A stretch of DNA of 64,000 bases from Bacteroidota bacterium (GTDB lineage Bacteria; Bacteroidota; Bacteroidia; Chitinophagales; Chitinophagaceae), in contig JABDAV010000001.1 of the NCBI GenBank assembly GCA_013289015.1, positions 1-64,000 of the forward strand, read 5' to 3'. This document shows positions 44,639-62,331 of this stretch, piece after piece. A program made the position numbers and the translations under genes. Under the pieces are notes generated by a model. That model was not told the DNA's origin, did no database searches, and saw only the letters and a program-made list of their open reading frames with translations. Every line of letters begins with the position of its first letter. The first letter of the stretch is position 1.

Positions 44639-44743
44639 ATGAAGAAAAGAAGTTTAAAAGAATGGATAATCCGCCTGTTGATATATGCAACGATAGGCTT
44701 TGCTATTGCTTATTTCTGGCAGCAGATGAAAAATAACCGCTAA
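44639..44743 (+). CDS. Unannotated 34-aa predicted small membrane protein
   Basis: MKKRSLKEWIIRLLIYATIGFAIAYFWQQMKNNR*: basic N-term plus one TM; stop overlaps the next ATG (taATG at 44741-44745). Confidence 0.55.
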   Translation: MKKRSLKEWIIRLLIYATIGFAIAYFWQQMKNNR

Positions 44744-45657
44744 TGAGTGAAAGCCAAAACATACCGCAGGAAAATTTCAAAGAACAAGTTCCAAACAGCA
44801 AAGAAGTAGTGAATGAAAATGTTTCACCGGAACAAATTATTACATCGGCTGAGTTTTCAAATGAGACATTAGAAATCCCAAAATCAGAAATCGAAAACAT
44901 GGAAGTGCATCATCACCCTCACGTGGATTCCCATTTGCATGGGAAGAAAAAGTTCAAAGAATATTTTTTGGAGTTCTTAATGATATTTTTAGCAGTAACA
45001 CTTGGCTTTTTTGCTGAGCAGATGCGTGAAAACGTTGCTGATCACAGCAGGGAAAAAGAATTCATGAAATCAATGGTGGAAGACCTGAAAACAGATACAG
45101 CAAACATGAACACTTTTTATACCCACTCAAATTTGGTTATCAGCCAAATAGATTCACTCATGTATTTAATAAGAAATCCGGACCGCAATCATTACGGGCA
45201 AAGCATGTATTATTTCGCAAGAGTTATAACCACAGGGCTAGGGAGATTTGAATTGAGTGACAGAAGCTATGAAGAAATGAAAAGTTCCGGTTCATTGCGG
45301 CTTGTTAATGATGATGTGCTTTCAGATTCCATATCAAAATACTATTCATCGCAAACTAATTTTAAAGAGCAGGCAGAATTGCAACTTACCAAAATGGCTG
45401 CTTATACTGATATTGCCACCAGGCTTTTTGATGGTAACGTGTTTCAGCAAATGCTGCAAAGATTTCCTTACAAAGTAATTCCGCCACAAGGAAACCCGCA
45501 ATTGCTTACGAATGATGCAGCTATCATAAATCAATACGTTGGTACGCTGCATTATTATAGTGCAATCATCATAATTAATTCAAGCAGGGCAAAACTGGAA
45601 AGCAACTCTTCAATTAATCTTATTAAAATGATCCAGGAGAAATACAACCTTCATTAA
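44743..45657 (+). CDS. Array paralog P1: His-rich single-pass membrane protein with N-terminal acidic extension
   Basis: 'NMEVHHHPHVDSHLHGKKKFKEYFLEFLMIFLAVTLGFFAEQMREN'; central 'YEEMKSSGSLRLVNDDVLSDSISKYY'. Confidence 0.85.
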   Translation: MSESQNIPQENFKEQVPNSKEVVNENVSPEQIITSAEFSNETLEIPKSEIENMEVHHHPHVDSHLHGKKKFKEYFLEFLMIFLAVTLGFFAEQMRENVADHSREKEFMKSMVEDLKTDTANMNTFYTHSNLVISQIDSLMYLIRNPDRNHYGQSMYYFARVITTGLGRFELSDRSYEEMKSSGSLRLVNDDVLSDSISKYYSSQTNFKEQAELQLTKMAAYTDIATRLFDGNVFQQMLQRFPYKVIPPQGNPQLLTNDAAIINQYVGTLHYYSAIIIINSSRAKLESNSSINLIKMIQEKYNLH

Positions 45658-45770
45658 CTGATTGTAAGAATAAAAGAAATAACAATCAAATCAAAATAAC
45701 GGAGTACAACATTATCCAAAGTAGAAAGCAAAATTTCAAACAATACTCTATCAGTCACTAAAAATATATC

Positions 45771-47324
45771 ATGAAAACAAAAACAATTTTACTCAACCTC
45801 TCCGCATTAATTTTTTTAAGTTGTACACTTCATGCACAAACGCAAAAAGAAACCACTACTATAAAAGTTGATATTAAACAAGACAGTATAATTAATTACA
45901 AGAAGTCTCAAAAATCAGTAACGCATGGCTCGGTAACTGTTGAAGGCAATAAGATAAATTACGAAGCAGTAGCCGGAACGCTTATTCTTAAAAACAGCCT
46001 GGACACGCCCACGCTCAGCATGTCTTATATTGCTTATTTTAAAGAGGAAGGAGATGCAGCGCAACGTCCGCTTACTTTTATTTATAATGGCGGTCCCGGA
46101 AGCGCTACTATCTGGCTGCACATGGGTGCATGGGGCCCGCAGCGTGTTTACCTGGACGATACTTCACGCACCAAAGCACCTTATAAAACTGTGAACAACG
46201 ATTACAGTTTGCTTGATGCCAGCGACCTGGTTTTTATTGATGCGCCGGGTACAGGGTTTGGCGAAGTGATTACCAAAGAAAAGGGTGGTGCAGGAAAGCC
46301 TGAAGATTTTTTTGGTATTGACCAGGATGCACATGCATTCGCCAATTTTATTACACAATTCCTTTCTGATTTTAACCGGTGGAATTCACCTAAATATTTA
46401 TTTGGAGAAAGTTATGGCACGTTTCGCTCGGCTGTTGTTTCCAACATTTTGCAAAGCCAGGAGAATGTTGGTTTGAATGGAGTGATATTGCTTTCTCAAT
46501 TATTAACATATGGTAACATGACGGATGCTGCAAAAGAAAATCCCGGTGATGATCAGTCGTACCAGCTTGCCTTACCATCGTACGCTGCAACTGCATGGTA
46601 TCATCATAAATTGCCTAATCAGCCTGAAAACTTAGAATCACTGTTGAAAGAAGTAGAGCATTTTGCAATGAATGAATATGCGCAGGCACTTAACCAGGGT
46701 TCGATGCTTGATTCAACTGCTTTTAATAATATCGCAGAGAAATTGCACAATTATACCGGGCTGCCTGTGGCTTATATAAAGAAAGCAAACCTGCGTATAA
46801 CCGGACCGCAATTTGAACAAAGTTTACTTAGTGATGAAAGTAAAATCACCGGGCGTTTAGATGCACGGTTTAGTGGTGCTGCCATTGATCCATTGGGTGA
46901 ATATGCAGATTACGATCCGATGGATTCTTATATTGATGCAGCTTTTGCAGCAACATTCAATAACTATGTACGTACAGACCTTGGGTTTGGAAAAGGCATG
47001 AAGTATAAAGTTTTTGGTGATATACACTCATGGGATTTTAAACGTCAGCAGGGATTTGGAATTTTTCCAAATGTTATGAATGATCTCGCGCAGGCGATGA
47101 TCTACAACCCTGATCTGAAAGTAATGCTGAATATGGGTTATTTTGATTTAGGCACGCCTTATTTTGAAGGTATGTATGAAATGCATCACCTGCCTGTTCC
47201 TAATGAACTGCAAAAAAATATTGAATTTCATACTTATTATTCCGGGCATATGGTGTACCTGCATCCCGAATCACTAAAACAACTGCATGATAATGTAGCA
47301 AAGTTTATTAACGATACACATTAA
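45771..47324 (+). CDS. S10 family serine carboxypeptidase-like protein
   Basis: Signal peptide; 'FIYNGGPGSATIWLHMGAWGPQRV', 'LFGESYGTFRSAVVSNIL', C-terminal 'YYSGHMVYLHPESL'. Confidence 0.92.
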   Translation: MKTKTILLNLSALIFLSCTLHAQTQKETTTIKVDIKQDSIINYKKSQKSVTHGSVTVEGNKINYEAVAGTLILKNSLDTPTLSMSYIAYFKEEGDAAQRPLTFIYNGGPGSATIWLHMGAWGPQRVYLDDTSRTKAPYKTVNNDYSLLDASDLVFIDAPGTGFGEVITKEKGGAGKPEDFFGIDQDAHAFANFITQFLSDFNRWNSPKYLFGESYGTFRSAVVSNILQSQENVGLNGVILLSQLLTYGNMTDAAKENPGDDQSYQLALPSYAATAWYHHKLPNQPENLESLLKEVEHFAMNEYAQALNQGSMLDSTAFNNIAEKLHNYTGLPVAYIKKANLRITGPQFEQSLLSDESKITGRLDARFSGAAIDPLGEYADYDPMDSYIDAAFAATFNNYVRTDLGFGKGMKYKVFGDIHSWDFKRQQGFGIFPNVMNDLAQAMIYNPDLKVMLNMGYFDLGTPYFEGMYEMHHLPVPNELQKNIEFHTYYSGHMVYLHPESLKQLHDNVAKFINDTH

Positions 47325-47343
47325 GTAAACAAGAGTTTGAATA

Positions 47344-48285
47344 ATGCCTGAAGAACAAAACATAGAACAAAGTCCGGAAGACGGAAAGACCGAAAGACCG
47401 GAAGAAGTGAATTCAACTATTTCACAGGAGCAGATTATTGCATCAGCTGAGTTTTCAAATCAAACATCAGAAATCCTCAAATCAGACATACCAAACATGG
47501 AAGTACATCATCATCCCGACCTGCATCACAAGAAGAAAAATTTCAAAGAATATTTTTTGGAATTCTTAATGATATTTCTTGCGGTAACACTTGGCTTTTT
47601 TGCAGAAACAATCAGGGAAAATATCTCAGAAAATAAACAAGCCGGTGAATTAGCAAAAAGCCTTTACCAGGAAGTGTTTGTTGATTCAATAAACGCACAG
47701 AATATAATTAAGCAGCGGCTGCAAAAAGAAGAAAGCCTTAAGTTATTTGGAAAGATTGTAAACGATAGTGATCTCACAAATCCCCCAAAACAATTTTATA
47801 CTGCATTTGCATGGTCATTCTTTATTACAACTGCTATAACGTTTGAGCCAAATGATGGTGTGTTAAGCCAATTAAGAAACTCTGGTACGCTGCGTTATTT
47901 TCATAATATGAATGTACAAAGTAAAATAGGTGAGCTTAGTGTTGATATTACAAAGATCAGAGAACGGCAACAACAAGAATACAATTTTGCTTCTGCCAAT
48001 GTAAGACCATTCGTTTTAAAATATTTTGATTTTAAATTACTTGATTCTGTTCTTAATGAAGGCAATCTGTCAATGGTAGAAACGTTGCTGCAGGATAGTT
48101 CAAAGCTTTCTGTAAGTGAGAAGATCAGAAACTTTGATGACTTCAATAAAGCAGATGCGGTAAATCTTGCCTACTATTATGGCATCATGCTAAGATCATC
48201 AAGACAGACGCAATTTGCACAATATGTAAAAGCAAATCACGAATTGCTGCAGTTATTACGCAGCGAATATCCGGTAAGCAAATAA
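47344..48285 (+). CDS. Array paralog P2 (with N-terminal extension)
   Basis: 'NMEVHHHPDLHHKKKNFKEYFLEFLMIFLAVTLGFFAETIREN'; 'LSQLRNSGTLRYFHN'. Confidence 0.85.
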   Translation: MPEEQNIEQSPEDGKTERPEEVNSTISQEQIIASAEFSNQTSEILKSDIPNMEVHHHPDLHHKKKNFKEYFLEFLMIFLAVTLGFFAETIRENISENKQAGELAKSLYQEVFVDSINAQNIIKQRLQKEESLKLFGKIVNDSDLTNPPKQFYTAFAWSFFITTAITFEPNDGVLSQLRNSGTLRYFHNMNVQSKIGELSVDITKIRERQQQEYNFASANVRPFVLKYFDFKLLDSVLNEGNLSMVETLLQDSSKLSVSEKIRNFDDFNKADAVNLAYYYGIMLRSSRQTQFAQYVKANHELLQLLRSEYPVSK

Positions 48286-48345
48286 TGTTTAGAATACTAA
48301 AAACAAATGCAGCCAATAATTATTAATTAATTAACCGATAACACT

Positions 48346-49125
48346 ATGGAAGTACATCATCATCCCAAAGTAGAAAAGAAAAATTTCAAAGAATATTTTT
48401 TGGAATTCTTAATGATATTTCTTGCGGTAACACTTGGCTTTTTTGCAGAAAGTTTAAGAGAGCACGTAAATGATAATTCAAAAGAAAGCGAATATATAAC
48501 CGCACTTTCTAAAGACCTTATGGGTGACACAACGAATATTCATACGTGGATAGAAGCATTTAATTCCCGCATTAATGAATATGATTCGGTAATTAATATG
48601 CTGCGTGCTCCTGAAAAAATAACTAATGGTGCAAAACTGTATTATATGTCAAGAATAACAACCAGGGGCACTGTGTTTGAGGACAATAATAATACAATGA
48701 TCCAATTAAATATTTCAGGCAATTTCAGGCTTATACGAAATAAACAGCTGGCAGAAAAGATAGTAGCTTATCAGAATGATATCGACAACTATAAAAGAAT
48801 AAACGAATACGATTCTTACGAAGCACGTGCTTTATATGAACCACAGTCTAAACTTTTTAATGCTTTCGTTTTTAATGACATGAGCAAGCCGATAACCGAT
48901 TCAACTGTTACCAGCAGCAATACATTGTTAGGTGGATTTAGAAATGTTTTCAAAGAGCCTTCAGGAAACCCGCAATTAATTACACAGGATGCAGAAAAAA
49001 TAAATGACTTCGTGTATTACCTGCATCAACGGAGATCAACATTTGCTGCCGAAATACTTATTCTTTATAAGCAGGAACAAGATGCGGTTGCACTAATAAA
49101 TCTTATCAAAGAATATAATTCATAG
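48346..49125 (+). CDS. Array paralog P3 (short form)
   Basis: Starts MEVHHHPKVEKKNFKEYFLEFLMIFLAVTLGFFAESLREH; 'IQLNISGNFRLIRNKQLAEKIVAYQ'. Confidence 0.85.
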   Translation: MEVHHHPKVEKKNFKEYFLEFLMIFLAVTLGFFAESLREHVNDNSKESEYITALSKDLMGDTTNIHTWIEAFNSRINEYDSVINMLRAPEKITNGAKLYYMSRITTRGTVFEDNNNTMIQLNISGNFRLIRNKQLAEKIVAYQNDIDNYKRINEYDSYEARALYEPQSKLFNAFVFNDMSKPITDSTVTSSNTLLGGFRNVFKEPSGNPQLITQDAEKINDFVYYLHQRRSTFAAEILILYKQEQDAVALINLIKEYNS

Positions 49126-49130
49126 AATAC

Positions 49131-49886
49131 ATGGAAGTACATCATCACCCCAAAGTAGAAAAGAAAAATTTTAAAGAATATTTTCTGGAATTCTTAATGA
49201 TATTTCTGGCTGTAACACTCGGCTTTTTTGCTGAAGGCTTAAGAGAACACATAAGTGATAATGAAAAAAGAGATCAATATATTGAATCCCTTGTTGAGGA
49301 TCTTGAATCTGATTCATTAAGAATACAAAACATTCTGCATTTTGATGACGCCAAAATAGCAGGATTAAGCGGGATGTATCAATGCTATGATACAGTTACA
49401 AATGATCTTAAAGCAACATCCTGCATGGGTGCATTAATAAAATATTCAAAAGTAAACAGGGCCTTCCAATTAAATGACCGCACACTTGCGCAACTCGCCA
49501 ACGCTGGTGGATTCAGGCTTTTAGAAAAGCAGGATGCTGACAGTATTCTTACGTACGAAAGATCTTACAGAGCCTACCATGATTTTGAAGGTACCATATA
49601 CCAGGAAGCACAGGATAATGTTCGCAATACATTGAATGAACTGGCCGATTTCAAAGCGATTGCACCATTACAGGTAGTTTCATCTGCCATAGGACTTGAT
49701 ACCGGCAGCAGCACACTAACCAGGCCTTTATTATTTTCTGATGACCGTATTTTGGTTAATAAATGGTTCAATCAATTGTTATTGTACCTAAGAGTTATAA
49801 AAGCACAACGGCTTTTGCTTTACAACCTGCAAGTGCAGGAAAGCAATCTTATCAGGTTTTATAAAAAAAAGCATCATATTAAATAG
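49131..49886 (+). CDS. Array paralog P4 (short form)
   Basis: Starts MEVHHHPKVEKKNFKEYFLEFLMIFLAVTLGFFAEGLREH; 'LAQLANAGGFRLLEKQDADSILTYE'. Confidence 0.85.
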   Translation: MEVHHHPKVEKKNFKEYFLEFLMIFLAVTLGFFAEGLREHISDNEKRDQYIESLVEDLESDSLRIQNILHFDDAKIAGLSGMYQCYDTVTNDLKATSCMGALIKYSKVNRAFQLNDRTLAQLANAGGFRLLEKQDADSILTYERSYRAYHDFEGTIYQEAQDNVRNTLNELADFKAIAPLQVVSSAIGLDTGSSTLTRPLLFSDDRILVNKWFNQLLLYLRVIKAQRLLLYNLQVQESNLIRFYKKKHHIK

Positions 49887-49888
49887 AT

Positions 49889-50635
49889 ATGGAAGTACAT
49901 CATCACCCACACGTAGAAAAGAAAAATTTCAAGGAATATTCCCTGGAGTTCATTATGATATTTCTTGCTGTAACGCTCGGCTTTTTTGCAGAAGGCCTTA
50001 GAGAAAGCATAACAGACCATGCAAAAGAAAATGAATACATCATCTCCATGGTTGAAGATGCAGCAACAGATACTGCCAACATTCATATAGCCATTAGACA
50101 AAATGATAAAAGAGTTGCTTCTTTAGATACGCTGGCAACATATTGCTTTAACTATACCGGATCGCAGGCAGATGATGAGGCAATTTACAGGTTGTACAAA
50201 AGAGCACTTGTTCATCCCGACATGGTAAGCCCTACCGAGCGCACTCTATTGCAATTAAAAAATTCCGGCGGTATGCGGCTGATAACAAAAAAAGCTGCAG
50301 TAGATAGTATTATTGCTTATGATGATATGGCAAAAAAACTGGCTGACCAGTTGGTTTATTATGAAAGATATCAGAATGAGTCTGTGAATTCGTCTTTTGA
50401 ACTTTTGAATTTTAAATATTACCAGTCAGGCCTTAACAGTAAAAATGCAGCACAGGATTATACTTCGGCCGTTTTGTTAAGCCACGACAAAATAAAACTG
50501 GTAGAGTTTGGCAACAGGATATCAATATATAAAGGCGTAGTGGCTTTTTATGTTTCAAGATTAAATGAAATGAATGATCACGCTATTGGCCTGATTAAAA
50601 CTTTGAAAGAACAATACCATTTGAAAGATGAGTGA
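49889..50635 (+). CDS. Array paralog P5 (short form)
   Basis: Starts MEVHHHPHVEKKNFKEYSLEFIMIFLAVTLGFFAEGLRES; 'LLQLKNSGGMRLITKKAAVDSIIAYD'. Confidence 0.85.
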   Translation: MEVHHHPHVEKKNFKEYSLEFIMIFLAVTLGFFAEGLRESITDHAKENEYIISMVEDAATDTANIHIAIRQNDKRVASLDTLATYCFNYTGSQADDEAIYRLYKRALVHPDMVSPTERTLLQLKNSGGMRLITKKAAVDSIIAYDDMAKKLADQLVYYERYQNESVNSSFELLNFKYYQSGLNSKNAAQDYTSAVLLSHDKIKLVEFGNRISIYKGVVAFYVSRLNEMNDHAIGLIKTLKEQYHLKDE

Positions 50636-51569
50636 AGAAGAAAAGATAAAACAAAGTCTGGAAGACGGAAAGTCCGAAAGACCGGAAGAAGTGAATGAAA
50701 ATATTTCACAGCAAGAAACAGTTGAACAAAGTGAAGCGCCAATCGAAACATCAGACATCACCATATCAGACATACCAAACATGGAAGTACATCATCACCC
50801 GCATGTAGAAAAGAAAAACTTTAAAGAATATTTTTTAGAATTCTTAATGATATTTCTTGCGGTAACAATGGGCTTTATTGCAGAGAATATAAGAGAAGGT
50901 ATCAGCGATACCAGCAAAGAAAAAGAATATGTGCGATCACTTTATGACGATATGCAGCGCGATAGTATAAACATAGGCACAACCGTTTATTTCGCTGGTC
51001 GCCAGATAAACAAAATTGACTCGTTAATATATATAATTAATCAACCTTTGCCCGACAGTAATGAAATAAATGCAGCTTACTTTTGTTCAAGAATTGCTAC
51101 CAGGGCAATACCTTTTGAACAAGCTGACCGTACCATACAGCAATTAAATAACTCCGGCAATTTCAGGCTTATAAAAAATGTTGCACTGGCAGACAGCATT
51201 ATAGAATATGAAAAAAACATTGCTGCATACAGGGAAAATCATGCAGTGGGCATGGAAGAGCGTCAACTTTTGTATCCTTTCATTTCTATCATTTTTGATG
51301 CAAATGTTTTTCAAACTATGGTTGACAGTACCAATCACATTCAAAGAACTTCAGGCCTTCATTCAATAAATAATGGAGATAAAAAATTAAACAACCAGTT
51401 TATTTATTATTTGCACCAGATAAAATCAACCATAGCTGCTGAAAAGATTAACCTGCTTAGTATCTCCCGGCAAACATCTGCTATACGGGAAATTATAATA
51501 GAAGATTATAAAACTATAAACCAAAATATGGAAGCATCATCACCACAAAGTGGGAAAGACAAATTTTAA
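50628..51569 (+). CDS. Array paralog P6 (with N-terminal extension)
   Basis: 'NMEVHHHPHVEKKNFKEYFLEFLMIFLAVTMGFIAENIREG'; 'IQQLNNSGNFRLIKNVALADSIIEYEKNI'; overlaps P5 by 8 nt. Confidence 0.85.
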   Translation: MSEEEKIKQSLEDGKSERPEEVNENISQQETVEQSEAPIETSDITISDIPNMEVHHHPHVEKKNFKEYFLEFLMIFLAVTMGFIAENIREGISDTSKEKEYVRSLYDDMQRDSINIGTTVYFAGRQINKIDSLIYIINQPLPDSNEINAAYFCSRIATRAIPFEQADRTIQQLNNSGNFRLIKNVALADSIIEYEKNIAAYRENHAVGMEERQLLYPFISIIFDANVFQTMVDSTNHIQRTSGLHSINNGDKKLNNQFIYYLHQIKSTIAAEKINLLSISRQTSAIREIIIEDYKTINQNMEASSPQSGKDKF

Positions 51570-52293
51570 AGAATATTTTCTCGAGTTTGTTATGATATTT
51601 CTTGCTGTTACAATGGGTTTTATTGCTGAAAATATTCGTGAAGATATTACTGAACACCAGCGCGCAAAAACATTTGCGGCAACTATGATACAGGATCTTA
51701 AAGCCGACACTGTTCAACTGGCCGCCTATAACAGATATTATTCGAGGGCAGCAAATAACATAGACACATTTATGCAACTGCTTACTGCAAATGATCCACA
51801 AAATATTCCGTCCGGGAAATTATACTGGTATGGTTTATGGGGCGGAGCGCGTAACAATTTTGTTTCAAATGATGCTACGTTTCAACAAATGAAAAGCTCA
51901 GGTTCGCTGTCTTTTTTTAAACCTGTTATTGCAACTGACGTAACAAAATACGACAGGTTTTGCCGCTTGTTACAAGCCACAGACGAAATGAACCGCGATG
52001 TTTATACTGAAGTAAGAAAGACCAGGTCGATGATATTTGAATTTAAATACAACGAGATTGCAAACCAGATTGCACAAAGAAGCAGGATTGCATTCAGCCA
52101 GGCAAGTATAGATTCTTTCATCGCAACAAACCCTCCTTTGTTAAGTTATGATAAAACACTGTTTAATGAATATGTTGAACTGGTGCGTTCAAGATTTATA
52201 CGAAATTATAATGTGGCTTATTCAGATTCGTTGATCAAACAAGCGAACATTGTGTTAAATGAACTACACAAAGAATATAATTTTGATGAGTAA
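51550..52293 (+). CDS. Array paralog P7 (short form; GTG start, ancestral ATG out of frame)
   Basis: '(M/V)GKTNFKEYFLEFVMIFLAVTMGFIAENIRED'; 'FQQMKSSGSLSFFKP'; overlaps P6 by 20 nt. Confidence 0.75.
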   Translation: MGKTNFKEYFLEFVMIFLAVTMGFIAENIREDITEHQRAKTFAATMIQDLKADTVQLAAYNRYYSRAANNIDTFMQLLTANDPQNIPSGKLYWYGLWGGARNNFVSNDATFQQMKSSGSLSFFKPVIATDVTKYDRFCRLLQATDEMNRDVYTEVRKTRSMIFEFKYNEIANQIAQRSRIAFSQASIDSFIATNPPLLSYDKTLFNEYVELVRSRFIRNYNVAYSDSLIKQANIVLNELHKEYNFDE

Positions 52294-52306
52294 TTAACAA
52301 AAAAAA

Positions 52307-53020
52307 ATGGCTTTAAATTATCAACCAAAAGTGAATAGGAAAGCGGTGAAAATATATTTCCTGGAATTTATAATGACAACGCTTGCAATAACATTAGGGT
52401 TTTTTGCAGAGAACGTTCGTGAGTCTTCTATTGATAAAAAAGTTACAACCCAATATTTGGAAACTTTTCAACTCGAGCTTCTCAATAATAAGATTGTATT
52501 CAACAATTATGACAGCATTTATAACAGCATTATGCCGGCAGAAGACAGCATAGTAAATATCTTTTATGAAAAGACGGAAAACAAAAACCTGTATACTATT
52601 GGCAGGCTGCTTGCCAGAACAAGAAGATTTATAATACCTCCTATAAGTATTTCAGCGTACCAGCAAATGGTTAATTCAGGCGGCTTGAAAAATATATACA
52701 ATCTTGCACTTAAAGATTCAATGGCTGTTTATTCTGAGCTGATACAACAGATCGAAAACTATAACGCATATATTTTTGATCTGCGCAGTGCCAACTCTCC
52801 TCAAATAGGTATGCTTGAAGATTTTCACGATTTTGCAGGGCCGGATCATATCCCTTCTATAGATAGTTATCCTGCTTTAACCGCACGCGAAAGAAGATTT
52901 ATTATTTATTATTACAGAACGCTCTTCATGCGGTCTTTGTCAGATAAAAGCCTGCTGGAAAGATTAATGCTTACCAATGATCATTTGTTGTCGACGATAA
53001 ACCAGGAGTTAAAAAAATAA
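52307..53020 (+). CDS. Array paralog P8 (most diverged, no HHH motif)
   Basis: 'MALNYQPKVNRKAVKIYFLEFIMTTLAITLGFFAENVRESS'; 'YQQMVNSGGLKNIYNLALKDSMAVYSEL'. Confidence 0.8.
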   Translation: MALNYQPKVNRKAVKIYFLEFIMTTLAITLGFFAENVRESSIDKKVTTQYLETFQLELLNNKIVFNNYDSIYNSIMPAEDSIVNIFYEKTENKNLYTIGRLLARTRRFIIPPISISAYQQMVNSGGLKNIYNLALKDSMAVYSELIQQIENYNAYIFDLRSANSPQIGMLEDFHDFAGPDHIPSIDSYPALTARERRFIIYYYRTLFMRSLSDKSLLERLMLTNDHLLSTINQELKK

Positions 53021-53082
53021 ACCGGTAACATGAACATGATTTGATGAATGATTATCCGATCAGAATAATAAGCTTTTCAATT

Positions 53083-54150
53083 ATGTTTACAATAGATGCA
53101 CATCTTGATCTTAGCATGAACGCAATGGAATGGAATCGTGATTTGCGTAAATCTGTGTTTGAACTGCGTGAAAGTGAAGCTGGTTTGCATGATAAACCTG
53201 ATCGTGCAAAGGGAACTGTTGCATTTCCTGAACTAAGAAAGGGTAATGTTGGATTGGTAGTAGCAACACAAATTGCGAGATATGTTTCCCCCGGAAATCC
53301 TTTGCCGGGCTGGCATTCACCAGAACAGGCATGGGCGCAAACACAGTCCCAGCTTGTATGGTATAAAGAAATGGAAGCCTGCAATGAAATGAAAATGATC
53401 ACCAATATTCATGAATTGAATAAACATGTTGAGTTATGGATGAATGATAACAACATGCAAAAACCTATCGGTTATATTTTAAGTTTGGAAGGAGCTGATT
53501 CAATTGTTTCAGTTGATTATCTGCAGCGCGCATATGATTATGGTTTGCGTGCTGTTGGTCCTGCGCATTATGGCCCTGGCCGTTATGCAAACGGAACAGA
53601 TGCAACAGGACATTTGAATACGGATGGCAAGGCCTTATTAAAAGAAATGGAACGTTTAAATATTATTCTGGATGCAACACATTTGTGCGATGATGCATTT
53701 TGGGACGCTATGAATTTGTTTCATGGTAATGTTTGGGCAAGCCATAATAACTGCAGGAAATTTGTAAATCATAATCGTCAATACAGCGATGAACAAATAA
53801 AAGTTTTAATAGAACGCGATGCTGTTATTGGCGCTTCCTTTGATGCGTGGATGCTTGTACCTAACTGGAAGCGGGGTACACCAACACCTGAAAATATGGG
53901 ATGCGATCTTAAAAAAGTGATAGATAACATTGATCATATTTGCCAGCTTTCAGGAAATAGTTTACATGCTGGTATAGGTTCTGATCTTGATGGCGCTTTT
54001 GGTAAAGAACAATGCCCTTATGATCTTGAAACAATTGCCCATCTCAACAAAGTTCCCGCATTATTAAAGCAACACGGTTATTCAGGCAACGACGTTGAAA
54101 ATATTATGCATGGAAACTGGCTCAGGTTTTTAAGAAATGCATGGAAATAA
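53083..54150 (+). CDS. M19 family membrane dipeptidase (renal dipeptidase-like)
   Basis: 'FTIDAHLDLSMNAMEWNRDL', 'SLEGADSI', 'DATHLCDDAFWDAM', 'ASHNNCRKFVNHNRQYSDEQIKVL', 'AGIGSDLDGAFG'; the ORF track extends to a TTG at 53041. Confidence 0.92.
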   Translation: MFTIDAHLDLSMNAMEWNRDLRKSVFELRESEAGLHDKPDRAKGTVAFPELRKGNVGLVVATQIARYVSPGNPLPGWHSPEQAWAQTQSQLVWYKEMEACNEMKMITNIHELNKHVELWMNDNNMQKPIGYILSLEGADSIVSVDYLQRAYDYGLRAVGPAHYGPGRYANGTDATGHLNTDGKALLKEMERLNIILDATHLCDDAFWDAMNLFHGNVWASHNNCRKFVNHNRQYSDEQIKVLIERDAVIGASFDAWMLVPNWKRGTPTPENMGCDLKKVIDNIDHICQLSGNSLHAGIGSDLDGAFGKEQCPYDLETIAHLNKVPALLKQHGYSGNDVENIMHGNWLRFLRNAWK

Positions 54151-54257: not shown

Positions 54258-56120
54258 ATGAAATTAATTATTACTATTACCTGCATTGCTTTTTTTTGTC
54301 TTCAGTTAACTGCACAAACATTGCCTGTGGCCCTGAATTACCAAAATGCTTATGATAAACAGACCCGTTCAATGGATGGGAAGCCCGGAAAAAATTACTG
54401 GCAAAATACAGCCGCATACAACATTGCTGTAAGCTTTGATCCTGCATCAAGAGTTGTTTCAGGTACAGAAACTATAGTGTATTCAAATAATAGTCCTGAT
54501 ACATTAAATACTATCGGCTTCAAGTTGTATCCGAACTTGTATCAGAAAGGAGCAGAGCGTGATCAGCCAATTAAAAGTGCTGATGTAAGCGATGGCGTGC
54601 AGATACGGGACTTTGCGGTAGGTGGAGCTCACCTGTCTCCGGATTCATTGGATATAGAGGCAACCAATATGTATGTGCCGGTATCCGGTTTATTACCCGG
54701 CGGACAGATGCAATTCAATATTTCATTTTCATATGTGCTGAACAAAACTTCACACCTGAGAACAGGCATGGTAGATGATAGCTCAGCATTCATTGCATAT
54801 TTCTTTCCGCGCATTGCCGTGTATGATGATATTGATGGCTGGAATAAAATTCCTTATACAGGAACGCCTGAAATGTATAATGATTTTTGTTCGTTTAATA
54901 TTGCCGTAACTGTTCCCAAAAATTATATTGTTTGTGCAACCGGTAACCTGCTGAATGCAGCCGAAGTGTATGCCCCTTCCATCGTACAACGCATCGGCGA
55001 AGCAGAAAAAAATGATGGCATTACAAAAGTGATCGATACATCAGACCTGCAGCAAGGAAACATAACTGCTCAAAATCTAACCAATACATGGAAGTTCAGT
55101 GCAGACAGCGTTACAGACTTTGTGTTTGCAACAAGCAATCATTATATATGGTATTCAAGCAGCCTTGTAGTTGATCCTTCAACACAAAGAAGAACAAGGG
55201 TAGATGCTGTTTTTAATCCGCAACATGCAGATTATTTCAAAGTTATTAATCAGGCAAGAAAAACAGTTGAATTGATGAGTTATACGCTTCCTGCATGGCC
55301 TTATCCTTATCCTCATGAAACAGTGTTTGATGGCCTTGACCAGATGGAATATCCTATGATGGTAAATGACAATCCTGTTGAAGATAATGCGGATGGAATA
55401 GAGTTAACCGACCATGAAATATTTCATACAATGTTTCCATTTTATATGGGCATTAATGAAACAAAATACGGATGGATGGATGAAGGCTGGGCAACGTTAG
55501 GAGAGTGGCTGCTTTCACCCATGATAGATTCAACCATTGAACCGGATGATTATGGCATGGATGCTTATGATAACAGCGCTGACCACGATTTTGACGTACC
55601 CATTACTACACTAAGCACCCAGCAAAACGAAGAGAGTTATTTCCTCAATTCATATCCCAAACCCGGCATGGGTTATCTGTATATAAAAGATATGCTGGGC
55701 GATAAATTGTTTACAACTGCATTGCATTATTATATTCAGCAATGGCACGGCAAACACCCGATGCCACTTGATTTTTTCAATTGCATGAATACCGGCAGCG
55801 GAAAAGATATGAATTGGTTCTGGAAGAAATGGTTTTATGAAAACGGTTATCCTGATCTCGCCATAACAAACGTAAAACAAAGCGGTACACAGGTTACTGT
55901 AACAGTTGAGATGAAAGGCAGTAAACCTGTTCCCGTTGATATTACGGTTTATTATAAAAACGGTTCAACGAAAACATTGCATCAAAGCATTGCAGTATGG
56001 GAAAACAGTGTTACAACCTCATTAAGCTTTACAGCAACCGGTTCAATTAAAAAAATTGTTTTAGGTGATGTTCATGATGCAGACAGCTATCCCTCTAATA
56101 ACGTATGGAAGATGAAATAG
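54258..56120 (+). CDS. M1 family metallopeptidase
   Basis: Signal peptide; Zn motif 'DHEIFHTMFPFYMG...DEGWATLGEW' (HExxH-E); 'FDGLDQMEYPMMV'. Confidence 0.9.
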   Translation: MKLIITITCIAFFCLQLTAQTLPVALNYQNAYDKQTRSMDGKPGKNYWQNTAAYNIAVSFDPASRVVSGTETIVYSNNSPDTLNTIGFKLYPNLYQKGAERDQPIKSADVSDGVQIRDFAVGGAHLSPDSLDIEATNMYVPVSGLLPGGQMQFNISFSYVLNKTSHLRTGMVDDSSAFIAYFFPRIAVYDDIDGWNKIPYTGTPEMYNDFCSFNIAVTVPKNYIVCATGNLLNAAEVYAPSIVQRIGEAEKNDGITKVIDTSDLQQGNITAQNLTNTWKFSADSVTDFVFATSNHYIWYSSSLVVDPSTQRRTRVDAVFNPQHADYFKVINQARKTVELMSYTLPAWPYPYPHETVFDGLDQMEYPMMVNDNPVEDNADGIELTDHEIFHTMFPFYMGINETKYGWMDEGWATLGEWLLSPMIDSTIEPDDYGMDAYDNSADHDFDVPITTLSTQQNEESYFLNSYPKPGMGYLYIKDMLGDKLFTTALHYYIQQWHGKHPMPLDFFNCMNTGSGKDMNWFWKKWFYENGYPDLAITNVKQSGTQVTVTVEMKGSKPVPVDITVYYKNGSTKTLHQSIAVWENSVTTSLSFTATGSIKKIVLGDVHDADSYPSNNVWKMK

Positions 56121-61428: not shown

Positions 61429-62331
61429 TTATTTTTTAAATGCAGGATGAAAGCTTTGCAATGTTTCCCTTAAATAATCCCTGTCTAAATGCGTATAGAT
61501 CTCAGTGGTGGTAATGCTTTCATGGCCAAGCATTTCCTGCACTGCCCGCAGGTCTGCACCGCCTTCAACCAAATGCGTTGCGAATGAATGGCGGAATGTA
61601 TGCGGCGATATATTCTTTATAATGCCTGCTTTTTTTGCAAGGTCTTTAATAATATAAAAGATCATCACGCGCGAAAGGCTTTTTCCAAACTTGCTCAGGA
61701 ATAAAAAATCTTCAAAATTTTTCTGCACAGTGATGTGATTGCGCACATGCTCTTTATAAATTTTAATGTGTTTAATGGCATCTCTTCCTATCGGCACTAA
61801 TCTTTCTTTATCGCCTTTACCGGTAATGCGTACAAAATCAATATCAAGATAAAGGCAACTGATCTTTAAATTCACAGTTTCACTTACCCGCAAACCACAG
61901 CTGTACATAGTTTCAAGAATAGCTTTGTTGCGCGCGCCATCAGGAGTGCTTAAATCTATCTTTGAAATAATTGCCTCTATTTCTTCAAAGCTTAAAATAT
62001 CCGGCAATGCGCGCTTTAATCTCGGCGCTTCCAGCAAAACAGAAGGATCTTTTGTAATAATGTTTTCAATCAGGCAATACTTAAAAAAACTTTTCAATCC
62101 GGAAATAATTCTTGCCTGCGATGCTGCATTGATACCAAGCTTTGCTATTGACTGAACGAATTGCTGCAGATCTTTTAAGTTTATTTCCGCCGGTGTTTTT
62201 AGATCTTTTATCGTTTGTAAATACTGCGTTAGCTTTTCCAGGTCACGCAGGTATGCTTCAACAGAGTTATTGCTTAAAGATTTTTCAAGCTGCAGGTATG
62301 CTTTGTAACTTTTTTTATAAGGTTCCCACAT
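61429..62331 (-). CDS. xerD: Site-specific tyrosine recombinase XerD-like
   Basis: 'ETMYSCGLRVSETVNL', 'VRITGKGDKERLVPIG', 'SPHTFRHSFATHLVEGGADLRAVQEMLGHESITTTEIYTHLD'. Confidence 0.92.
   Translation of the reverse strand: MWEPYKKSYKAYLQLEKSLSNNSVEAYLRDLEKLTQYLQTIKDLKTPAEINLKDLQQFVQSIAKLGINAASQARIISGLKSFFKYCLIENIITKDPSVLLEAPRLKRALPDILSFEEIEAIISKIDLSTPDGARNKAILETMYSCGLRVSETVNLKISCLYLDIDFVRITGKGDKERLVPIGRDAIKHIKIYKEHVRNHITVQKNFEDFLFLSKFGKSLSRVMIFYIIKDLAKKAGIIKNISPHTFRHSFATHLVEGGADLRAVQEMLGHESITTTEIYTHLDRDYLRETLQSFHPAFKK

Follow-up and report, generated by a model that had tools for sequence, protein, structure and literature searches.

What kind of system is formed by eight neighbouring genes that share an almost constant 5' portion and differ in most of what follows? 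The question is raised by the first 64,000 nucleotides (nt) of contig JABDAV010000001.1 (GenBank assembly GCA_013289015.1, Bacteroidota, Chitinophagaceae), a stretch hereafter called the window, whose host is a soil-type Bacteroidota bacterium. The window contains an array of eight paralogous open reading frames (ORFs), P1-P8, all on one strand and spanning 44743-53020, most of which encode a His-rich N-terminal tag (MEVHHHPxVEKK), a transmembrane (TM) segment or anchor, and a C-terminal body. Comparisons at the sequence level established a constant anchor under selection, old and distinct bodies, exchange of these genes between genomes and recombination at the 5' tag and between anchor and body. 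Tentatively, we favour the reading that the proteins are interchangeable recognition modules, each mounted on a shared membrane-docking anchor, and that recombination at the gene junctions shuffles them.

Composition of the array

P1, 44743..45657, + strand: 304 amino acids (aa), with a 52-aa N-terminal extension, MEVHHH tag at 44899, TM anchor and helical bundle; group OG11, with a syntenic ortholog in locus L046
P2, 47344..48285, + strand: 313 aa, extension as in P1 and P6, tag at 47497; group OG3
P3, 48346..49125, + strand: 259 aa; group OG21
P4, 49131..49886, + strand: 251 aa; group OG4
P5, 49889..50635, + strand: 248 aa; group OG8
P6, 50628..51569, + strand: 313 aa, N-terminal extension, tag at 50781; group OG22
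P7, 51550..52293, + strand: 247 aa from a GTG start, tag near 51528 broken; group OG0
P8, 52307..53020, + strand: 237 aa, the most divergent member, no HHH

Whole-length alignment bore out the common architecture that a first-pass annotation had proposed for the eight same-strand ORFs. P1-P8 align end to end; of the 17 invariant columns almost all fall in the membrane segment, which is near-invariant as described (76-97% identity within P1-P7, 59-66% to P8); the C-terminal bodies are mutually 12-37% identical. In the genome, all eight scored E 1e-74 or below with a family profile built from these same sequences. P3 used alone as a query recovered its seven paralogs with E values no higher than 3e-16, together with one further copy on contig G000:C34; the pattern is far beyond chance. 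The tight packing of P3-P8 was likewise confirmed, the spacings being 5, 2, -8, -20 and 13 nt in order. Other parts of that annotation needed amendment. All eight members are present, but the array is not uninterrupted, as an S10 peptidase gene splits P1 from P2, and its proposed start at 44639 is instead that of a separate 34-codon ORF ending where P1 begins. The His-rich N-terminus ascribed to most members occurs in six of the eight (P1-P6), whereas the P7 tag is frameshifted and P8 lacks the MEVHHH motif, its N-terminus reading MALNYQPKVNRK. The supposedly common C-terminus 'LIKEY' is exact in P3 only, with looser forms in others (for example, LIKMIQEKYNLH and LIKTLKEQYHLK). In the alignment of P1-P8 a homologous extension of ~52 residues precedes MEVHHH in P1, P2 and P6 only.

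The broken tag of P7 is due to a 2-nt deletion (~51528-51569), through which the tag ATG reads on in the P6 frame (...NMEASSPQSGKDKF), and the sole possible P7 start in the assembly is the GTG at 51550. The final 13 residues of P6 (MEASSPQSGKDKF) are encoded by this frameshifted tag; the P6/P7 overlap and the unusual P6 tail are thus explained by the deletion, which may be genuine or may reflect a fault of the assembly.

Relatives in other genomes and selection

A profile search of 200 genomes from the same taxonomic family found these genes in 54, and they are also present in named Chitinophagaceae, Mucilaginibacter and Chryseolinea records; many of the genomes compared are metagenome-assembled. 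The tandem clustering seen in the window is conserved in many related genomes. Arrays reach 13 members on one contig, and copy number ranges from 1, as in many genomes, to about 29: genome G028 carries 29 copies, most within a 51-kb island, and the genome behind loci L039, L045, L057 and L069 carries 25. Residues conserved at 90% or more in the family are M1, E2, V3, H4, H5, H6, K15, Y17, E20, G31, R38 and E39, and M23, A27 and E35 are invariant in the family alignment; the His content is kept in most members, P8 being without it.

Six of the window genes (P1, P2, P4-P7) have their closest relatives elsewhere at 62-83% identity (P2 is 83% identical in amino acids to L032:985-1767), P3 at 54% and P8 at 42%, while the window paralogs share at most about 46% in any local alignment. 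The same held more widely: of 203 array members, 180 had their nearest relative outside their own genome (median identity 63% vs 40%). At 52% identity, 280 sequences formed 125 groups, including 75 singletons; 22 of the 25 largest groups never occurred twice in one locus, gene order was not conserved, and the most widespread group was OG0, that of P7 (16 loci). On this grouping by sequence, about 125 groups make up a common pool, from which the arrays sample mostly without repeats. The syntenic site of L046, with M1 and M19 peptidase flanks 84% identical in DNA, has two family genes in place of the eight in the window, and P1 alone has an ortholog there.

The C-terminal regions had been described in the first-pass annotation as rapidly diverging; they are instead old orthologous groups under purifying selection, with ratios of non-synonymous to synonymous substitution (dN/dS) of ~0.1-0.2 in the body (0.08-0.22 between orthologs, for pairs with unsaturated dS), and rapid or positive selection on this part was rejected on these values. 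In the anchor the proportion of synonymous differences (pS) was 0.60-0.68 and that of non-synonymous differences (pN) 0.09-0.14, which indicates that the anchor is under selection as a protein and led us to reject recent gene conversion as the sole cause of its conservation.

Exchange and recombination at the tag

Single genes move between genera: in DNA they were 88-93% identical across genera for which rpoB was 78-83% identical. A Ginsengibacter hankyongi isolate (G479) and a Parafilimonas metagenome-assembled genome (G480) share 78.8% DNA identity in the rpoB region and 93.4, 92.9, 91.8 and 88.7% in array blocks; in other pairs the values were 78.0% for rpoB vs 91.2 and 87.8%, and 83.3 vs 92.1%. 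(No rpoB match was found in the window genome, which is 66% complete.) The best cross-genome blocks comprise one gene each, starting at its tag and stopping at that of the gene after it, and the neighbours differ. Tags mark the 5' end in 84% of blocks and the 3' end in 53%, compared with 24% of random points. Bin contamination may affect some metagenome-derived pairs, not every one of which can be cleared of it.

Mosaics of anchor and body are stronger evidence than block ends. The bodies of group OG7 in L033, L034 and L057 are 92-98% identical in DNA, but identity drops to 82-85% in their membrane segments, and each has its own tail (HVEKKNF, DLHHKKKNF and HVGSDSHRKKNF). Of 32 recent pairs, one or two of which may come from the same genome in two collections, 24 had a membrane segment of lower identity than the body, the reverse of conservation at the protein level. 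Codon identity within genomes exceeded that between genomes chiefly over ~40 codons at the start and ~18 at the end of the gene; judged from these alignments, within-genome homogenisation is partial and local to both gene ends.

Searches of plasmids, phages and viral contigs with single protein queries and one motif scan gave no family match, and an origin from phage or plasmid was rejected on this result. No tyrosine recombinase or integrase was found in or beside the arrays examined, including the G028 island; the nearest recombinase genes are XerC/D-like and lie ~8 kb off (window 61432-62331; G046 C1:889645).

Several further observations concern the tag as DNA. Across 278 family 5' ends the start codons ATG GAA GTA CAT are near-fixed (GAA 96%, GTA 83%), which suggests selection on the translation start or exchange at the DNA level; upstream, information is low bar an A-rich leader, and conservation starts at the ATG. 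Truncated tag remnants (MEVHHHPxVEKK... followed by a stop) occur close to where family genes end, frequently behind the final gene of an array. In-frame fusions join the tag, twice with the membrane segment, to a truncated histidine kinase, to a lipoprotein and to SnoaL/DUF4440-like proteins:

Truncated tag remnants: L056:627, L057:7479, L058:12278, L069:3276, L076:10807, L083:16479, L090:2706, L047:2757
In-frame tag fusions: L038:11706-12938 (truncated kinase), L044:11346-12263, L044:10741, L079:751

A tag-to-tag segment of 183 nt without an intact gene recurs at L038:11545-11725 and in L004 (reverse strand, ~3226-3045) at 95.6% identity, with differing flanks. In L083:6749-11039 a near-identical upstream sequence of ~50 nt (atatcaattgctattcataactctaaactctgaattctaaactatacc) precedes four genes, a sign of recent junction duplication.

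Relationship to DUF6090

As the first-pass annotation had supposed, no curated family covers P1-P8, which matched nothing in Pfam, NCBIfam or PADLOC, and no solved structure in the PDB was matched by sequence. Scans of 123 relatives with PADLOC and Pfam gave scattered matches only, of one to three members each; the PADLOC matches were stray and confined to single members, and membership of a defence system was dropped as a candidate. The statement that no family could be recognised holds for curated families only, as a remote relative was identified in DUF6090 (PF19578). The PF19578 model itself had no match in the window genome at E<=10, P1-P8 falling below the Pfam curated cut-off, and was not among the families listed for the 123 members. 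When the family was compared with true DUF6090 members fetched from the same class, hhalign gave a probability of 98.6% (P 7e-16) over 229 columns, the full length, and 98.9 with the part after the membrane helix only, compared with 0.1-0.2 for sequence-reversed controls; hmmsearch in both directions gave E values down to 4.6e-22. Because of this full-length match with null reversed controls, P1-P8 are placed by sequence in an unnamed divergent branch of the DUF6090 superfamily, as remote kin.

The two families have in common a length of ~250 aa, a basic N-terminal segment, a single TM helix that opens with an acidic residue, a C-terminal part of ~200 aa with a comparable ...L.SG...I.N... core, and tandem arrays. 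They differ in the tail, which is MEVHHHP..EKK in the window family and FFRKIRQKLL in DUF6090, and in a small array-linked protein (see below) that was not seen in the DUF6090 loci examined. In genome G292 two window-family genes lie close to a long run of DUF6090 genes within one 15-kb region. To our knowledge, DUF6090 comprises Bacteroidota proteins without known function, and a literature search found no paper using the name DUF6090 or the motif MEVHHH. Long tandem DUF6090 arrays interleaved with hydrolase-like genes were observed in L123-L124 (G292:C2:135.6-153.5 kb), L127 and L128, the latter two near genes that read, by eye and unscanned, as gamma-glutamyltransferase-, penicillin-acylase- and peptidase-like, neighbours much like those of the window family.

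Predicted structure and topology

The AlphaFold2 model of P3 (123 sequences; pLDDT 91.7, pTM 0.81) has one helix, residues 14-86, that passes unbroken from the membrane into a bundle, later helices within 95-129 and within 133-179, and a last helix at 216-258; P8 was modelled with the same helix order (pLDDT 90.3). Both models contain one TM-containing helix and end with the last bundle helix, with no second TM or signalling domain. Prediction thus agrees with the single-pass anchor and large exported domain proposed in the first-pass annotation, whereas its N-in orientation has only a weak positive-inside charge signal: K+R average 3.4 before and 3.2 after the membrane segment, and D+E 2.1 and 3.4. 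The orientation is probably N-in, with the bundle on the far side of the inner membrane. Foldseek searches of the PDB and of viral models gave no match at E<0.001, only generic helical bundles. A D-amino-acid chemoreceptor domain (8bsa) appeared in the P3 fold search at E 0.55 and was absent from the P8 matches listed, and the likeness was not used. Four-helix-bundle ligand-binding domains of such chemoreceptors (Vc1313/MCP-DRK; PMC10390336) resemble the window family in a TM helix running into a periplasmic helical bundle; the window family differs in having no significant sequence or fold match to them and no second TM, HAMP or signalling domain.

A linked microprotein

The ORF at the upstream edge of the array, below the 80-aa cut-off of the ORF listing, encodes a small protein:

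Microprotein MKKRSLKEWIIRLLIYATIGFAIAYFWQQMKNNR, 44639..44743, + strand: 34 aa, single-TM; its stop overlaps the P1 start (TAATG)

Homologs of 33-34 aa (consensus K.R.IK.LIY.IVGFA.AFFWHQMKN) lie beside family genes in about 25 array loci, and examples in array gaps are found at L068:7461, L038:8237 and 20365, L042:5475 and L069:3415. Over 23 sequences the core had a pS of 0.71 and a pN of 0.29, which indicates a protein under selection. At E<=1e-6 it was detected in 16 of 200 genomes, all 16 of which carry the family (hypergeometric p 1.2e-10), and by their coordinates most of these matches have a family gene no more than a few hundred nt away. The microprotein is a conserved, array-linked protein new here.

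Neighbouring genes

Three peptidase-family genes accompany the window array:

S10 serine-carboxypeptidase-like gene, 45771..47324, + strand: between P1 and P2, not a member of the family (PF00450, E 7.7e-13)
M19 membrane-dipeptidase family gene, 53041..54150, + strand: directly downstream of P8 (PF01244, E 3.3e-46)
M1 peptidase family gene, 54258..56120, + strand: 84% DNA identity to L046, in synteny

The M19 gene adjoins family genes at other loci too. When 67 genes directly adjacent to arrays were compared with 110 distant genes on the same contigs (p values uncorrected over about 80 families), the adjacent set contained more amino-acid permeases (6/67 vs 0/110, p 0.0025), TPR_12 proteins (9/67 vs 3/110, p 0.011), M19 dipeptidases (3/67 vs 0/110, p 0.053), histidine-kinase ATPases (6/67 vs 3/110, p 0.08) and penicillin amidases (2/67 vs 0/110). 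Some groups are found repeatedly beside the same kind of neighbour: F1/F14, for instance, lie next to permeases, and F5 next to a TPR-membrane protein or a penicillin acylase.

Interpretation and alternatives

In the modular reading that we tentatively favour, each member would combine a short tail in the cytoplasm (MEVHHHPxVEKK), a membrane helix under strong constraint and a long helical bundle probably beyond the inner membrane. Ordinary homologous recombination, with the conserved gene junctions (a 3' end and the next 5' tag) as arms, would place an incoming body beside a resident anchor or join it to one. Less certainly, the invariant anchor may give all variants a single docking partner in the membrane, with the microprotein as the best candidate for it, and each exchangeable bundle may recognise a different client or ligand. 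As amino-acid permease, peptidase and TPR genes recur nearby, our leading guess is that the clients are components of extracytoplasmic peptide and amino-acid handling, a guess that we consider more apt to be wrong than right. The fullest version, an integrase-free single-gene cassette system in which more than 100 extracytoplasmic recognition domains would move between genera by homologous recombination at a coding tag and meet, through an invariant His-tailed anchor, a shared membrane partner including the 33-residue microprotein, is doubtful as a whole. Like integron cassette arrays, it would consist of single-gene units shuffled between genomes with no conserved order; unlike them, the window-family arrays have no integrase, their shared segment encodes a protein start, and no attC-like site was noted, although no dedicated attC search was made. 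The shuffling seems to need no dedicated recombinase, and the conserved gene start may double as a recombination arm.

Several results weigh against this modular reading. Block ends at gene starts follow partly from the high conservation of the tag. The periplasmic side is inferred, and the charge bias is weak. The enrichment of neighbours is modest, the p values of 0.0025, 0.011 and 0.053 being uncorrected for about 80 families, and the TPR-membrane protein was rejected as an obligatory partner, since 7 of 16 genomes with strong matches to it have the family and it is absent from the window genome. A clear match to the microprotein was obtained in only 16 of 54 family-positive genomes, so that it is not the sole hub unless homologs were missed.

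An orphan immunity-like repertoire, in which each bundle would neutralise a different extracytoplasmic toxin, bacteriocin or peptide antibiotic, seems unlikely to us, although much of the layout would suit it. The reported model is the recombinase-associated acquired interbacterial defence (rAID) arrays of gut Bacteroidales (PMC12247911), which share with the window family co-oriented genes of 100-300 codons, a conserved repeated junction sequence and horizontal spread. Non-redundant sets, gain and loss at one syntenic site (two copies in L046 vs eight in the window), an inner-membrane anchor apt for a periplasmic target, and resistance-type neighbours (rifampin ADP-ribosyltransferase, penicillin amidases, MFS) also agree with gain and loss by recombination as in rAID. 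However, no tyrosine recombinase was found beside the arrays and no toxin, secretion system or known immunity family near them, Pfam, NCBIfam and PADLOC scans of the members showed no immunity family (the PADLOC matches were stray and confined to single members), the conserved sequence is coding here and intergenic in rAID, and the tail and membrane helix are conserved more strictly than anchoring requires. Moreover, rAID immunity genes are reported to gain non-synonymous changes at the interface, whereas dN/dS in the window family is low and indicates purifying selection. If the bodies were immunity or resistance factors, soil Bacteroidota would hold in these arrays a large and so far unread repertoire for defence.

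Two functional alternatives are, in our view, quite improbable. That all members are co-expressed subunits of one hetero-oligomeric inner-membrane or periplasmic complex, a possibility raised in the first-pass annotation, accords with the operon-like packing of P3-P8, the common anchor and the microprotein within arrays, but a fixed complex needs a fixed set, and here copy number runs from 1 to about 29, order and composition vary and many genomes have a single copy. A role as co-sensors, four-helix-bundle ligand-binding modules reporting to adjacent TPR/7TM histidine kinases, would be in keeping with the kinase genes beside several arrays, the tag fused to a truncated kinase at L038:11706 and the appearance of 8bsa in the P3 fold search; against it, the histidine-kinase enrichment is not significant, the 8bsa match is poor and not repeated among the P8 matches listed, the family has no signalling domain, no kinase lies directly beside the window array, and the L038 fusion may be a deletion product. 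That a DUF6090-like gene simply multiplied within its lineage by repeated local duplication, while genomes exchanged nothing, is very improbable: it would account for the tandem arrangement and for occasional recent similarity within arrays, such as the repeated upstream sequence of L083, but is already contradicted by the 180 of 203 nearest relatives found elsewhere, by body DNA identities above those of rpoB and by the anchor/body mosaics, unless the cross-genome matches are assembly contamination. DUF6090-like genes are abundant and unexplained in Bacteroidota, and with these comparisons a set of hypothetical proteins becomes a testable system.

A ninth copy

The additional copy in the window genome, L126 (G000:C34):9332-10075, is His-tailed and overlaps by 4 nt a gene that reads, by eye, as hemL; it sits after genes reading likewise as hemF and hemB, in an apparent haem-synthesis cluster.

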